Assembly: GCF_019216885.1 (NCBI RefSeq)
Contig: NZ_JAAQRC020000001.1
Location: 2,480,001-2,544,000 of the forward strand
From: Methylobacterium sp. SyP6R
GTDB lineage: Bacteria > Pseudomonadota > Alphaproteobacteria > Rhizobiales > Beijerinckiaceae
Length of the DNA stretch: 64,000 bases
Direction: 5' to 3'
The position numbers and the translations under genes were made by a program. How positions within the stretch are numbered: position 1 is the first letter of the stretch; each line of letters opens with the position of its first letter. This document shows positions 49,691-53,462 of the stretch, in pieces. The notes under the pieces are model-generated. The model worked only from the letters and a program-made list of their open reading frames with translations, did no database searches and was not told where the DNA came from.

Positions 49691-49715
49691 AACGCCGGCC
49701 CACCCGCCCGGTTCC
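49691..49715 (-). promoter_or_regulatory. Sigma-EcfG-type promoter of the 72-aa gene
   Basis: On the minus strand GGAAC (49715-49711), 16-bp spacer, CGTT (49694-49691): exact consensus, 66 bp before the start at 49625. Confidence 0.65.
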
Positions 49716-49877
49716 ACCTCAGGTCCGGCCGGTGCGGCCAAGTTTCGTCGTCTGCGAGAAGTTTCGCCGTCTGCGAGAGGTGTTAGCTCAAGTCGCCGAC
49801 GTGACGCGACGTGGCGACAGCCCGACCTGTACTGCCCCGAATCGGGACCATCAGTCGGACGGCCCGCATGCGTGGCA

Positions 49878-49902
49878 GGAACCATCATTTGCGCTGAAGG
49901 TT
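49878..49902 (+). promoter_or_regulatory. Near-consensus sigma-EcfG-type promoter of the KGG gene
   Basis: GGAAC (49878-49882), 16-bp spacer, GGTT (consensus CGTT), 34 bp upstream of the KGG protein start. One mismatch in the -10, but the location in the stress island and the stress-protein product support it. Confidence 0.5.
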
Positions 49903-49935
49903 GTCCGGACTGAGAACCCCGCCAAGGAGGCAAAC

Positions 49936-50130
49936 ATGGCAACCGGAAATTCGACCTCGAAGCGCGGCTTCGCATCCATGGATCTGGAGCGCCAGCGCGA
50001 GATCGCCAGCAAGGGCGGCCGCAGCGTGCCGGCCGAGAAGCGCTCCTTCTCGCAGGACCGCGAACTGGCCTCGTCGGCCGGCCGCAAGGGTGGGCAGGCT
50101 TCGGGCAGCGGCCGCGCCACCGACGAGTGA
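49936..50130 (+). CDS. KGG-repeat general stress protein
   Basis: 64-aa hydrophilic protein with two spaced KGG motifs (IASKGGRSVP and AGRKGGQASG), the hallmark of the stress-induced GsiB/YciG-type KGG family, thought to act like small hydrophilins or LEA proteins that protect during desiccation. AAGGAGG lies six bases before ATG 49936. Located in the general stress island with a near-consensus sigma-EcfG promoter. Confidence 0.85.
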   Translation: MATGNSTSKRGFASMDLERQREIASKGGRSVPAEKRSFSQDRELASSAGRKGGQASGSGRATDE

Positions 50131-50351
50131 AGGCCGGATCCCGTCGAGCCGGAACCGCCCGGCGGACGGATGATCTCCATGACCGGGCCCGCCTCGCGCT
50201 ACCCCGCTCCAGGGGACCCATCGAGACCCGCCCGTTGAGACCCGCGCTCATGCGCCGGAGGGAGCCAGCCTCGCCTCCGGCGCATCAGCATGGGCCGTGA
50301 CGACGGTTCAGGACGACATATCGTCGAATGTCGCGCTTCCGGACGCGACGA

Positions 50352-50390
50352 AGCACCCCGGGCGCCACGGCGCCCGGGGTGCTCTTCGTT
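50352..50390. terminator. Strong bidirectional intrinsic terminator
   Basis: AGCACCCCGGGCGCC (50352-50366) and GGCGCCCGGGGTGCT (50369-50383) form a 15-bp stem between the KGG gene and the leftward 68-aa gene; TCTTCGTT follows on the plus strand and CTTCGTCG on the minus. Confidence 0.75.
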
Positions 50391-50402
50391 CGACCCCTGT
50401 CG

Positions 50403-50609
50403 TCAGGCGGCGAGGGGCCGCGCCGTGACCACGAGGTTGCGCCGCGCCAGGGCCGGGCAGACCACGTCGTCGACCGGCCGCACGGCAGTGACGCCGGCCA
50501 GAAGGCTGGCGAGCCGGTCGGCATCGGGCTCGACGTGACCGTCGCGATGAACCCGCTCCGGAGGCGGCGGCTGAGGCGAGGGCACCTCGTATTCGCGCAG
50601 ATCGATCAT
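50403..50609 (-). CDS. Hypothetical 68-aa protein
   Basis: 68-aa product beginning MIDLREYEVPSPQPPPPERV, no signal or membrane helix, no family recognised. It starts 38 bp downstream of the 172-aa gene and ends just before a terminator, so it is probably the last gene of that transcript and would share its stress promoter. The ribosome site is weak, making this the least certain gene of the island. Confidence 0.45.
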   Translation of the reverse strand: MIDLREYEVPSPQPPPPERVHRDGHVEPDADRLASLLAGVTAVRPVDDVVCPALARRNLVVTARPLAA

Positions 50610-50647
50610 GACGGGGATCCGGTGGATGTCTGACGGGGCGGCGCCCG

Positions 50648-51166
50648 TCAGAGCGTCGCGACGGGGGTCGGAGAGACGGAAGCCGGCAGGACGTCGCCGG
50701 CATCGGCGAGGCAGCGGCTCGGCAGCAGGCGACGGGCCTCGTGGCCGGCGAGCCCGCTGATCGCCCCCTCGCAGCCCTCCGGCATCCGCCGCACGGCCTG
50801 GCCGGCGGGAGCTGGATCGCGCTGCGCCACCGGAGTGCCGGTGCGCTCGCGCACGGTGACGTGGGGGATCGCGGTGTCGCGGGCGACGAGCGTCGTGTTG
50901 CGGGTGGCGTCGGCCTGGTAGACGATGTCGCCGGCGGCGTTGCGCAGGGTGACCTTGGCCGCACCGAGCCCGGTGATCTCGACTGCGACCGGGACCTGCG
51001 CCTTCGCGGCCGGCCGGACCGGCGCGAGACGATCGCCCTTGAGCGCCGCCTGCTCGACGGCCGGACGGGCGACCGCCCCGACGGAATGCTCGATCAGCGG
51101 CTGCCCGACCAGGGTGAGGAACGCGGCCGGAACCGTAACACCGAGGAAGAAGTGCGGGCGGAGCAT
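50648..51166 (-). CDS. Uncharacterised 172-aa exported or membrane-anchored protein, stress-promoter controlled
   Basis: 172-aa protein with an N-terminal hydrophobic segment (MLRPHFFLGVTVPAAFLTLVG) able to act as signal or anchor, and a polar remainder with VTLRNAAGDIVYQADATRNTTLVARD, a beta-rich stretch, and two late cysteines. No family recognised. GAGGG lies before ATG 51166. An exact GGAAC-N17-CGTT promoter lies 40 bp upstream. Many Methylobacterium stress islands carry such small envelope proteins. Confidence 0.65.
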   Translation of the reverse strand: MLRPHFFLGVTVPAAFLTLVGQPLIEHSVGAVARPAVEQAALKGDRLAPVRPAAKAQVPVAVEITGLGAAKVTLRNAAGDIVYQADATRNTTLVARDTAIPHVTVRERTGTPVAQRDPAPAGQAVRRMPEGCEGAISGLAGHEARRLLPSRCLADAGDVLPASVSPTPVATL

Positions 51167-51205
51167 ACGCGTGGCCCTCGCGGCGAAGCTTGAGAATGCT
51201 TCCTT

Positions 51206-51231
51206 AACGCGGATCCTCCGCAAGTCGTTCC
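51206..51231 (-). promoter_or_regulatory. Sigma-EcfG-type promoter of the 172-aa gene
   Basis: On the minus strand GGAAC (51231-51227), 17-bp spacer, CGTT (51209-51206): exact consensus, 40 bp upstream of the start at 51166. Confidence 0.65.
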
Positions 51232-51381
51232 CGCGTCCGTGCCTGGACGGGACAATTCATGCCGCGAATGCGGCGGAGCCCGTCAATCACTCGTTAACCA
51301 GCCCAGATGCGGGTCGCGTGGCGATCAAGCGCAGCAATTTCGCCACAGGCAACGAAAAAGCATCGCCGATCGCAGCTGCAC

Positions 51382-51407
51382 GGAACCTTGTCGCGGAGAT
51401 TCTCGTT
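51382..51407 (+). promoter_or_regulatory. Sigma-EcfG-type promoter of a small RNA
   Basis: GGAAC (51382-51386), 17-bp spacer, CGTT (51404-51407): exact consensus on the plus strand with no plus-strand protein gene downstream. Transcription should begin near 51413-51416. Confidence 0.7.
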
Positions 51408-51413
51408 GATATG

Positions 51414-51508
51414 GCAACCCGGCCACCTGGTCCTCCCCGCATTCCCCTTGTGCATTGGCCGGAAACTCTTTCAACGGGCCGGATCCCGATCCGGCCCGTT
51501 CTTTTGTA
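51414..51508 (+). ncRNA. Candidate general-stress small RNA, GsrN-like
   Basis: About 95 nt between an exact sigma-EcfG promoter and an intrinsic terminator. The 5' part folds by CCGGCCA (51419-51425) pairing with TGGCCGG (51456-51462), leaving a 30-nt loop rich in C with TCCTCCCC (51431-51438) and TTCCCC, which can pair with ribosome-binding sites. The 3' part is the terminator AACGGGCCGGAT-CCCG-ATCCGGCCCGTT followed by CTTTTG. The plan (sigma-factor-controlled, C-rich 5' loop, terminator hairpin, beside phyR/nepR) matches the Caulobacter sRNA GsrN, which regulates katG mRNA. Open reading frames through here are not supported by a ribosome site. Converges on phyR. Confidence 0.7.
51473..51508 (+). 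terminator. Intrinsic terminator of the small RNA
   Basis: Twelve-bp perfect stem AACGGGCCGGAT (51473-51484) / ATCCGGCCCGTT (51489-51500), four-base loop, then CTTTTGTATT. It is the strongest plus-strand terminator in the window and has no protein gene upstream to serve. Confidence 0.85.
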
Positions 51509-51536
51509 TTGGGCCTGGACGTTCGGGAGCGGCCAA

Positions 51537-51584
51537 GTCTAGCGGAAGCATGGTCTAGCGGAAGCATGGTCCAGCGGAAGCAGG
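51537..51584. repeat. Three tandem 16-bp repeats
   Basis: GTCTAGCGGAAGCATG occurs twice in a row (51537-51552, 51553-51568) followed by GTCCAGCGGAAGCAGG (51569-51584). Located between the small RNA and phyR; purpose unknown. The rest of 51585-51775 shows no gene. Confidence 0.6.
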
Positions 51585-51775
51585 CGCGGTGCGCATGCGC
51601 GGGTCACCGCCCACTCACCCATTCGGCGATACCGCCCCCGCCTTTCGACGGTTCGCCATCATCCAGAACGCTCCGAAGGACATGATTCCCGAAACGACGA
51701 AGCCCCGGCACCCGCCTGCCGGCGGGCCCAGGGCTTTGTCCCGAACTGCGCGTCGCGATTCGCGTGGAGGCGGCG

Positions 51776-52579
51776 TCAGGCGCTCGCGCGGGCCTCGCGG
51801 CGGCGGGCGCTCTGCTGGAAGAACAGCGCTTGGCTGATCACCGCCGAGACGTTGGCGGGCTGGAAGGGCTTCGCGATGAGGAAGGCCGGCTCGGGCCGCT
51901 CGCCGGTGAGGAAGCGCTCCGGATAGGCCGTGATGAAGATCACCGGCACTTCGAACGACTTCAGGAGATCGTTGACCGCGTCGAGGCCCGACGAGCCGTC
52001 GGCGAGCTGGATGTCGGCGAGGATCAGGCCGGGGCGCTTGCTGGAGGCGAGCTTGACCGCCTCGGTCCGCGTCCGGGCGACGCCGGTGACGTTGTGGCCC
52101 AGGCCCTCCACCAGGGCCTCGAGGTCCATGGCGATCAAGGGCTCGTCCTCGATGATGAGGATCTCGGTCGCCATGTCGGCGGCGAGTTCGCGGCCGGCCT
52201 CGTCGACGAGGTCGCGGACCTCGGAGACGTCGACGCCCAGGATGGTGGCGGCGTCCTCCTCGGAGAAGCCCTCCAGGCAGGAGAGCAGGAAGGCCTGGCG
52301 CGGCAGCGGCGTGATCTGGCCGAGCCGTACCTCGGCCGGCAGGTCGTGCTGGGTCTGCTCGGTCTGGCCGTTGACCGAGAGCGAGTTCCAGATCCGGGTG
52401 AAGACGCGGAACAGGTCGGCCTTGACGTTGGTGCTGCGCCCGAGGGTCTCGGGCTCGTTCACGAGCGTTTCGAGCGTCGCGGCCACGTAGGCATCGCCGG
52501 CCACCTGGCTGCCCGTGAGGGCGCGCGCGTAGCGGCGCAGGTAGGGCAGGTGCTGCACCACGAGTTGTGCTGTCGACAT
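51776..52579 (-). CDS. phyR: PhyR, general stress response master regulator (anti-anti-sigma)
   Basis: 267-aa response regulator. Residues 1-125 are an EcfG-sigma-like domain (sigma2-like LPYLRRYARALTGSQVAGDAYV; sigma4-like TPLPRQAFLLSCLEGFSEEDAATIL) lacking a DNA-binding role; residues about 137-257 are a receiver with acid pocket IIEDEP and phospho-acceptor Asp189 in LILADIQLADG. On phosphorylation PhyR releases its sigma-like domain and captures NepR, freeing sigma-EcfG. First described in Methylobacterium extorquens. It is divergent from nepR, each with its own exact sigma-EcfG promoter, forming positive feedback. No kinase gene is adjacent. Confidence 0.96.
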   Translation of the reverse strand: MSTAQLVVQHLPYLRRYARALTGSQVAGDAYVAATLETLVNEPETLGRSTNVKADLFRVFTRIWNSLSVNGQTEQTQHDLPAEVRLGQITPLPRQAFLLSCLEGFSEEDAATILGVDVSEVRDLVDEAGRELAADMATEILIIEDEPLIAMDLEALVEGLGHNVTGVARTRTEAVKLASSKRPGLILADIQLADGSSGLDAVNDLLKSFEVPVIFITAYPERFLTGERPEPAFLIAKPFQPANVSAVISQALFFQQSARRREARASA

Positions 52580-52628
52580 TCAGGTCCCCTTGGTGTTGCC
52601 GTTTTACGCGCGTCGGCCCTCATGCCTC

Positions 52629-52653
52629 AACGCCGTGCGCCCGCATTCGTTCC
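52629..52653 (-). promoter_or_regulatory. Sigma-EcfG promoter of phyR
   Basis: On the minus strand GGAAC (52653-52649), 16-bp spacer, CGTT (52632-52629): exact consensus, 50 bp upstream of the phyR ATG. Confidence 0.8.
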
Positions 52654-52663
52654 GGGCAAGCGC

Positions 52664-52688
52664 GGAACTGACCGCGCCGGCGCGCGTT
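52664..52688 (+). promoter_or_regulatory. Sigma-EcfG promoter of nepR
   Basis: GGAAC (52664-52668), 16-bp spacer, CGTT (52685-52688): exact consensus, about 80 bp upstream of nepR. Back-to-back with the phyR promoter, the two -35 elements being 10 bp apart. Confidence 0.8.
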
Positions 52689-52768
52689 GTCGCCGCAGCG
52701 CGACCCGGCATACCGGGCGCCATGGCATCGCCTTGTCCGCGTGTCCAGGACGGGCGAAGGGGAACGGC

Positions 52769-53023
52769 ATGATCGACGGCAAGGGGATGCAAGGTCCCGG
52801 GATGCAAGCCCCGCGGACGCCCCGGGACGAGGATGATCCCGCGGCAGGGCCCGAGCAGCCCGCCCTCGACCGCAACGTGCAGGGGCGCATCGGCTCGCAC
52901 CTGCGTGCCATGTATGACGAACTGATGCAGCAGCCTATTCCCGACCGCTTCGTCGATCTCATCGCCGAACTCGAGCGCAGCTCGGGACAGCTGCCACCGG
53001 ATGCGCCGCCGACGGAATCGTGA
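52769..53023 (+). CDS. nepR: NepR anti-sigma factor of the general stress response
   Basis: 84-aa protein with the NepR helices at residues about 37-70: VQGRIGSHLRAMYDELMQQ followed by PIPDRFVDLIAELE, the conserved pattern IGxxLRxxYDxxxxxPxPDRFxxLxxxL. NepR binds and silences sigma-EcfG until phosphorylated PhyR takes it away. The disordered N-terminal tail (Met/Gly/Pro-rich) is usual. AAGGGGAA precedes ATG 52769. The ecfG gene, which often follows nepR in other genera, is absent here; a minus-strand DUF1328 gene follows. Confidence 0.93.
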   Translation: MIDGKGMQGPGMQAPRTPRDEDDPAAGPEQPALDRNVQGRIGSHLRAMYDELMQQPIPDRFVDLIAELERSSGQLPPDAPPTES

Positions 53024-53111
53024 TCTGGACCACACGAGCGCCGCGGAGCAAGAACGCCGCCCCTCGAGGGGAGGGACGGCGCGAAGTCTCGACAGGTTCG
53101 ATCCGTCGATG

Positions 53112-53288
53112 TCAGAGCGTCGGCGAGCGGCCCCGCATCAGGCCGACCACGGCCGAGATGGCGAAGAGCACGACGGCGACGAAGAAGATGAGCTTGGCGG
53201 CCTCGACCGCGGTGCCGGCGATACCGCCGAACCCGAACAGCGCGGCCACCAGGGCGACGACGAGGAATGTGACAGCCCAACCCAGCAT
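53112..53288 (-). CDS. DUF1328 small membrane protein (YtjA-like)
   Basis: 58-aa protein with two transmembrane helices (MLGWAVTFLVVALVAALFGF and AAKLIFFVAVVLFAISAVVG), the standard DUF1328 layout. Such proteins are widespread and stress-linked, function unknown. AGAGGG precedes ATG 53288. Exact sigma-EcfG promoter 55 bp upstream. Confidence 0.9.
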   Translation of the reverse strand: MLGWAVTFLVVALVAALFGFGGIAGTAVEAAKLIFFVAVVLFAISAVVGLMRGRSPTL

Positions 53289-53342
53289 GGCGAGACCCTC
53301 TCTTGTCTGATTCTCTCGGCCCCCGGCCGATCGTGAGCAGAC

Positions 53343-53367
53343 AACGTCAAGCATGACCTTGGGTTCC
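53343..53367 (-). promoter_or_regulatory. Sigma-EcfG promoter of the DUF1328 gene
   Basis: On the minus strand GGAAC (53367-53363), 16-bp spacer, CGTT (53346-53343): exact consensus, 55 bp upstream of ATG 53288. Confidence 0.75.
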
Positions 53368-53436
53368 GCTTTGTCGCAGGTAGCGCAAACGGATCGGACC
53401 CCCCACATTGTCGGGACGGTCGGGGGGCGGCCGGGC

Positions 53437-53462
53437 GGAACTCCGGTTTCGCGCCACACGTT
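53437..53462 (+). promoter_or_regulatory. Sigma-EcfG promoter of the 66-aa membrane peptide
   Basis: GGAAC (53437-53441), 17-bp spacer, CGTT (53459-53462): exact consensus, 27 bp upstream of ATG 53489. Confidence 0.72.

Follow-up and report, generated by a model that had tools for sequence, protein, structure and literature searches.

A phyR-linked small RNA gene with an EcfG-type promoter in Methylobacterium and its predicted pairing with phyR and nepR

The intergenic region convergent with phyR in Methylobacterium sp. SyP6R very probably holds a small RNA (sRNA) gene driven by EcfG, as judged from sequence comparison. PhyR was first characterised in this genus. The account that we favour, with a probability of roughly 0.7, is that the locus encodes a trans-acting, EcfG-driven stress sRNA that would pair with mRNAs through its loop and feed back on the translation of nepR and phyR. 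What is new here is the predicted complementarity of the most accessible loop segment, UCCCCUU, to the Shine-Dalgarno sequences of both genes.

Promoter and layout of the predicted sRNA

The features of the locus lie in the window, that is, the whole stretch of 64,000 nucleotides that was analysed, and are given below with their strands.

51382..51407, + strand: EcfG-type promoter of the sRNA, GGAAC-N17-CGTT, found by pattern; 108 of 110 genus loci retain the box
~51417..51505, + strand: sRNA, predicted transcript of ~89 nt, its start taken from the conserved block
51419..51462, + strand: predicted 5′ hairpin (fold), with stem 51419-51425 / 51456-51462 around the C-rich loop
51431..51438, + strand: first C-rich segment UCCUCCCC, with TCCTCCCC at these positions; present in 108 of 110 genus copies
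51443..51450, + strand: proposed seed UCCCCUUG, with the TCCCCTT run at 51443-51449; kept in 109 of 110 genus copies
51473..51505, + strand: predicted intrinsic terminator (fold), with a 12-bp stem 51473-51484 / 51489-51500, then UUCUUUU
51776..52579, − strand: phyR, convergent with the sRNA (Pfam PhyR_sigma2, PhyR_sigma-like and Response_reg)
52585..52592, − strand: Shine-Dalgarno CAAGGGGA of phyR, a predicted target by its complementarity to UCCCCUUG
52629..52653, − strand: EcfG-type box of phyR, found by pattern
52664..52688, + strand: EcfG-type box of nepR, found by pattern
52757..52763, + strand: Shine-Dalgarno AAGGGGA of nepR, a predicted target by its complementarity to UCCCCUU
52769..53023, + strand: nepR, anti-sigma factor, divergent from phyR (Pfam NepR, 2.3e-16)
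52780..52787, + strand: another CAAGGGGA, within codons 4-7 of nepR, where pairing is also predicted

The original prediction, made from the letters of this stretch, had placed an exact stress-sigma promoter ahead of the RNA, and the box was found at 51382-51407 on the + strand. It follows the EcfG consensus of M. extorquens, which passages of PMC4814048 give as GAAC-N16,17-C/GGTT. In the 64-kb window, GGAAC-N16-18-CGTT was counted 8 times, compared with 0.92 expected from shuffles. The 7-bp 5′ stem, C-rich loop and 12-bp terminator stem with U-run that had been described were recovered by folding: the segment 51413-51508 has a predicted energy of −39.3 kcal/mol (z −4.18), and 0 of 200 shuffles folded equally well. 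In the predicted ensemble, UCCCCUU was unpaired with a probability of 0.93 and was the most accessible segment of the loop; its C-run (TCCCCTT in the DNA) was more accessible than the TCCTCCCC run at 51431-51438. A transcript start near 51414, as first proposed, is possible; the conserved RNA block begins instead at A51417, and our covariance models R1 and R2 matched the locus at 51416-51504 and 51416-51505, respectively.

When Rfam 15 was searched at the gathering threshold, 0 matches were obtained in the window and 0 in seven related loci, and two sub-threshold matches at the locus were pieces of the terminator. The sRNA, which the original prediction considered possibly unannotated, belongs to no Rfam family by this search and, by all comparative evidence, is a real, unlisted gene.

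An island of EcfG-type boxes spans 49691-53462 of the window, with the sRNA, phyR and nepR boxes among them. The others lie at 49715-49691 (− strand), at 49878-49902 (+ strand) ahead of the gene for a KGG stress protein (49936-50130, PF10685), at 51231-51206 (− strand), at 53367-53343 (− strand) ahead of the gene for a DUF1328 protein (53112-53285, PF07043), and at 53437-53462 (+ strand).

Conservation in the genus and beyond

Positions 51340-51515 were used as the query against 111 same-genus genomes (Methylobacterium with Methylorubrum, our own genome included), and all 110 matching loci were fetched. The one genome without a match, G073, has 470 contigs and a completeness of 95%. A near-invariant RNA found in 110 of 111 genomes provides a defined gene for studies of the general stress response. 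The two loci whose boxes lack [CG]GTT (L082 and L095) carry TGTT. Among the 109 loci with the box inside the scanned stretch, the promoter spacer was 16 nt in 82 and 17 nt in 27, and CCCGGCC began 9-11 nt past the −10 element. Mean column conservation was 0.43 in the upstream flank, 0.996 in GGAAC, 0.51 in the spacer, 0.984 in CGTT, 0.50 in the gap, 0.979 in the hairpin, 0.75 in the linker, 0.83 in the terminator and 0.45 downstream. This profile, high in the box and hairpin and low between them, is expected of a promoter-RNA-terminator unit; stem, loop and promoter were conserved in relatives, as the original prediction called for, and the spacer, gap and flanks were not.

Within the loop, UCCCCUU was kept in all but one of the 110 genus copies, and two species (L024 and L054) carry UCCUCAACC in place of UCCUCCCC. 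A structure test on 31 sequences placed four of five measures above all 500 shuffles, the fifth being reached by 23 of 500. In the terminator, 7 of 11 aligned pairs had changes on both sides. Given that the 5′ stem had a single two-sided exchange (C-G to U-A, in three sequences of genus g20), compared with seven such pairs in the terminator, the stem is supported mainly by energy and invariance. A small GCAU/GUGC hairpin within the loop was paired in 91% of cells; because no pair in it was changed on both sides, it is not claimed as a structure.

In the window, about 270 nt separate the sRNA from the end of phyR. Across the genus, a convergent phyR lay within 43-611 nt of the sRNA at 106 of the 110 loci. 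At the other four (L005, L010, L014 and L070), phyR was not within the 1.5-2 kb fetched, and the sRNA and full box were intact; three genomes (G011, G064 and G016) have phyR 16-18 kb off, and in G101 it is on a different contig. That sRNA and box are intact in four unlinked genomes indicates that the sRNA does not depend on an adjacent phyR. A strict EcfG box was present within 110 nt of phyR in only 75 of 106 genus leaders and 8 of 22 leaders from the other three genera, which weakens the case for feedback.

To cover the family, model R1, built on 34 sequences, was run on 298 genomes at E 0.01. Matches were obtained in 61, of which 53 had E < 1e-10 and fell in four genera, namely our own (25), g32 (Microvirga; 23), g20 (3) and g36 (2); the remaining eight were weak. 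By these matches, the sRNA family is one that reaches Microvirga and two further genera. Among 25 such loci (L136-L160), phyR was convergent in 22, and the box was kept by pattern in most of those scored (all except L137 and L140), with TGTT in L154 and a failure of the pattern in L141; L159 and L160 were weak matches having neither box nor phyR. Taken together, the comparative evidence in four genera gives strong support, at the level of sequence, to a C-rich-loop sRNA that is linked to phyR and has an EcfG-type promoter, in line with the general-stress sRNA first proposed.

One genome, G182, has a second, divergent copy of the sRNA (L158, G182:C48:66602-66681) with its own EcfG box and no phyR within the 2 kb fetched; the CCCCGCAUUCCCCUUGUGCA core and CCCCGCATTCCCCTTGTGCA are kept, and the stem is changed. 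A scan for the exact 22-nt core found 105 stretches in named records. The 80 of these that were listed came from Methylobacterium, Methylorubrum, Microvirga, an unplaced Rhizobiales strain and MAGs, the last labelled Microvirga, Rhizobiaceae, Beijerinckiaceae or Methylorubrum. One copy with an EcfG box (L526) lies on an IMG/VR contig filed as viral, with no phyR in its 1339 bases, and is possibly a misfiled piece of chromosome. Another match lies at 2169300-2169386 of NZ_LR743510.1, which is 2.8 Mb long and entered as a plasmid of Methylobacterium bullatum.

Model R2, run on 397 genomes of the order (a set outside which Caulobacteraceae lies), gave nothing convincing beyond the known genera. 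The weak matches (E 1e-4 to 0.01) were rejected; of those inspected (20 loci plus L190, the bodies of L181, L182 and L187 not included), most were terminator-like, and none had an EcfG box immediately ahead of it or a phyR match. One locus, L170, has a C-rich hairpin loop, UCCCCCUU, and no box.

Predicted pairing with phyR, nepR and katG

In our own 7.5-Mb genome, AAGGGGA stood 3-9 nt ahead of an ATG at 39 sites, compared with 15 for the reversed pattern, and both phyR and nepR were among the 39. Thirty of these sites start an open reading frame of at least 40 aa, and an EcfG box was found only at phyR and nepR. When the lists from our own genome, G049 and G340 were compared, nepR and phyR were the only families present in all three, a comparison that was not blind, since G049 and G340 were picked after AAGGGGA had been seen in their phyR and nepR. 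The same screen also contained phyR in G129. Four further clusters spanned two genomes; two of the four look like spurious reading frames, and two are presumably rplA-like and lpdA-like. In Microvirga G340, three genes (L402, L412 and L414) have both an AAGGGGA Shine-Dalgarno and an EcfG box and are candidate targets in that genus.

The phyR site was conserved throughout the clade: AGGGGA was found in 125 of 128 leaders (103 of 106 in the genus, the exceptions being L063, L096 and L097, and 22 of 22 in the other three genera), versus 4 of 27 in other families as counted by eye (L295, L300, L309 and L315). Among the 128, AAGGGGA accounted for 61 and CAGGGGA for 63; the 62 genus leaders (of 106) with CAGGGGA would form only six pairs with the seed. 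AGGGGA was likewise present in 4 of 4 phyR genes unlinked to the sRNA. For nepR, AGGGG was found in 77 and AAGGGG in 63 of 83 scorable leaders, whose starts were picked by anti-Shine-Dalgarno pairing; a cruder choice of starts gave AGGGGA in 70 of 118, and three g20 leaders were without AGGGG. The match of these Shine-Dalgarno sequences to the seed may reflect ribosome binding alone.

When 236 leaders of our own genome were ranked by helix and accessibility, nepR came second, but it owed this rank to the codon 4-7 site and not to its Shine-Dalgarno. phyR came only 12th, so that pairing scores by themselves would fail to pick it out. In a sample of 238 genes in 464 kb, taken with a crude caller that missed short genes such as nepR, AAGGGGA was found in 2 (phyR included) and AAGGGG in 5. 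These data leave nepR and/or phyR as tentative members of the real target set, at somewhat below even odds.

Other NepR-domain genes were surveyed at 17 loci of 19 PF18557 matches in three genomes, and were rejected as targets in our own genome, where 0 of 8 had AAGGGG ahead of the likely start. In one of them (L359, 228 aa), CAGGGGC lies about 13-19 nt ahead of the start; a G340 gene (L350) has CAAGGGGA directly ahead of a GTG. The long NepR-domain genes probably encode EcfG proteins, given their length and the NepR-like extension described in passages of PMC4814048.

The original prediction had named katG in particular for a target check with the loop. In our own genome, the katG leader contains GGAAGGAGCC and no run of four Gs, and the same holds for L247 and L253. 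Seven of the 15 genus leaders (L245, L248, L250, L251, L254, L255 and L257), or 7 of 12 besides these three, have a run of at least four Gs at the Shine-Dalgarno, the start codons being the analyst's choice. Ahead of katG, the pattern found no EcfG box in the 15 genus leaders. Of 31 genomes, 15 had katG above the family cut-off, and 17 gave any match to it. katG was therefore rejected as the main target in our own genome and as a conserved target; it may still be a lineage-specific one, because 7 of 12 leaders from other species have the G-run. By sequence, the phyR and nepR Shine-Dalgarno sites seem to fit the loop better than katG does.

Proposed mechanism, rival readings and relation to known stress RNAs

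Phosphorylated PhyR frees sigma-EcfG from NepR. The conserved promoter, RNA and terminator suggest that EcfG RNA polymerase would then start at ~51417 and end at the terminator at ~51505. The exposed seed UCCCCUU would pair with G-rich Shine-Dalgarno sites and alter translation, as for Caulobacter GsrN; action through pairing of the C-rich loop is likely. The best-supported targets in Methylobacterium and Microvirga would be nepR and phyR, each of which has an EcfG-type box in the window. The partner switch would thereby come under feedback after transcription. The sRNA would most likely repress by covering the Shine-Dalgarno, which is the usual effect of such covering. The net effect would be set by relative strength, since lower NepR would prolong and lower PhyR curb the response. 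Co-purification of nepR and sigT RNAs with Caulobacter GsrN (PMC5869019) favours this account, and the lack of a GsrN effect on a stress reporter there counts against it. It is possible, though doubtful, that this sRNA of Methylobacteriaceae is wired back on the switch, with a near-invariant UCCCCUU set against AGGGGA-type phyR and nepR sites and EcfG feeding back on the anti-sigma and anti-anti-sigma factor together.

Equally tentative is a reading in which a GsrN-type RNA would act on various G-rich stress-gene leaders (katG in some species) rather than on the core switch, and in which phyR and nepR would match merely as incidental ribosome-binding sites. Passages of PMC5869019 describe GsrN as working on katG by its C-rich loop, and this reading would account for the G-runs in 7 of 15 genus katG leaders, for the eleven of 236 leaders that rank above phyR, ten of them not nepR, and for the three further AAGGGGA genes with an EcfG box in Microvirga G340. 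It fits less well with a seed that is near-invariant although our own katG leader has no G-run and katG clears the cut-off in just 15 of 31 genomes, and with the recurrence of nepR and phyR, and nothing else, in all three screened genomes. The sRNA might also act as a general anti-Shine-Dalgarno mimic that lowers the translation of many mRNAs under stress through UCCUCCCC, which we take to resemble the 3′ end of 16S rRNA. UCCUCCCC is kept in 108 of 110 copies, and the top leader of the 236 pairs through it; however, it is predicted to be less accessible than UCCCCUU and gives way to UCCUCAACC in L024 and L054, and we consider this reading unlikely.

Two further readings are very improbable. 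If the element were merely a stress-induced terminator, or an antisense or insulator element for phyR, its convergent position about 270 nt from the phyR end and its symmetric terminator hairpin would be natural, but the sRNA and box are kept in four genomes with a distant phyR, conservation peaks in the hairpin loop whereas the terminator is variable, and the second copy in G182 has its own EcfG box and CCCCGCAUUCCCCUUGUGCA core with no phyR nearby. A small EcfG-dependent peptide is no easier to credit: open frames on the + strand do cross the sRNA in the window, but they do so mechanically, the near-invariant loop has indels of 1 and 2 nt across species, and upstream ATGs, where present, lie in different frames. 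By these indels and frames the sRNA looks non-coding, in keeping with the earlier view that no protein gene reads in this direction. The feedback account on nepR and phyR stays the one that we prefer.

The original prediction had likened both architecture and genomic setting to those of Caulobacter GsrN. The architecture holds, with an EcfG-type promoter and a C-rich loop, and linkage to phyR is as for GsrN-like genes elsewhere; the C. crescentus gene itself lies away from the general stress response (GSR) locus. In passages of PMC5869019, GsrN acts on katG through a C-rich loop, nepR and sigT RNAs co-purified with it, it left a transcriptional reporter of the GSR unaffected, and the study saw no evidence that it regulates sigT or NepR; GsrN-like genes are predicted there in Caulobacteraceae, Rhizobiaceae, Brucella, R. 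palustris and B. diazoefficiens, and the word Methylobacterium is absent from the main text. Shared with GsrN are thus a promoter of the EcfG/sigT class, an exposed C-rich 5′ loop (predicted here) and relatives near GSR regulators, whereas the conserved partner of the Methylobacterium sRNA is not katG. Since the katG feature is missing in our own genome and the likeness seen is one of architecture, we regard the sRNA as GsrN-like in its working and do not file it as GsrN. A second known RNA of similar layout, ReC64 of Rhizobium etli, is described in passages of PMC3892343 as an EcfG1-dependent 88-nt ncRNA with an EcfG promoter downstream of phyR-tcrY. As described there, it resembles our sRNA in length (about 88 nt), promoter and intergenic position near phyR, but it lies downstream of a histidine kinase gene.

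The passages on the topic in Methylobacterium papers named no GSR sRNA, phyR is absent from the main text of PMC9320726 (dRNA-seq of Methylorubrum DM4), and no report of this RNA in Methylobacterium was recognised in the open-licence literature seen in part. Control of EcfG3 in M. extorquens 'possibly by a small RNA' is suspected in a passage of PMC4814048. If the pairing with nepR and phyR is real, RNA-level feedback could set the amplitude and shut-off of the clade's stress response, the wiring would be of the kind sought and not found for Caulobacter GsrN in the passages cited, and the sRNA would be a candidate for part of the post-transcriptional control suspected in M. extorquens.

Among 27 phyR loci from other families, an EcfG box, a C-rich hairpin and a terminator were found at L297, L306 and L316; L323, a wider stretch of L294, had the box and C-rich hairpin, with no terminator found. 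The core of L306 is similar to that of our sRNA, a likeness equalled by 6 of 2000 shuffles; the share of shuffles that did as well was 11% for L297, 100% for L316, 5% for L323 and 59% for L332. Model R2 gave 15.1 bits at L316, 8.2 at L306 and 6.9 at L323, and none at L297, with other hits in the same loci at up to 16.0. What the other families appear to have in common with our sRNA is its kind (EcfG box, linkage to phyR, C-rich loop), R2 scoring no higher than other hits. In four other families of the order, L297, L306, L316 and L323 are candidates for such an sRNA close to phyR.
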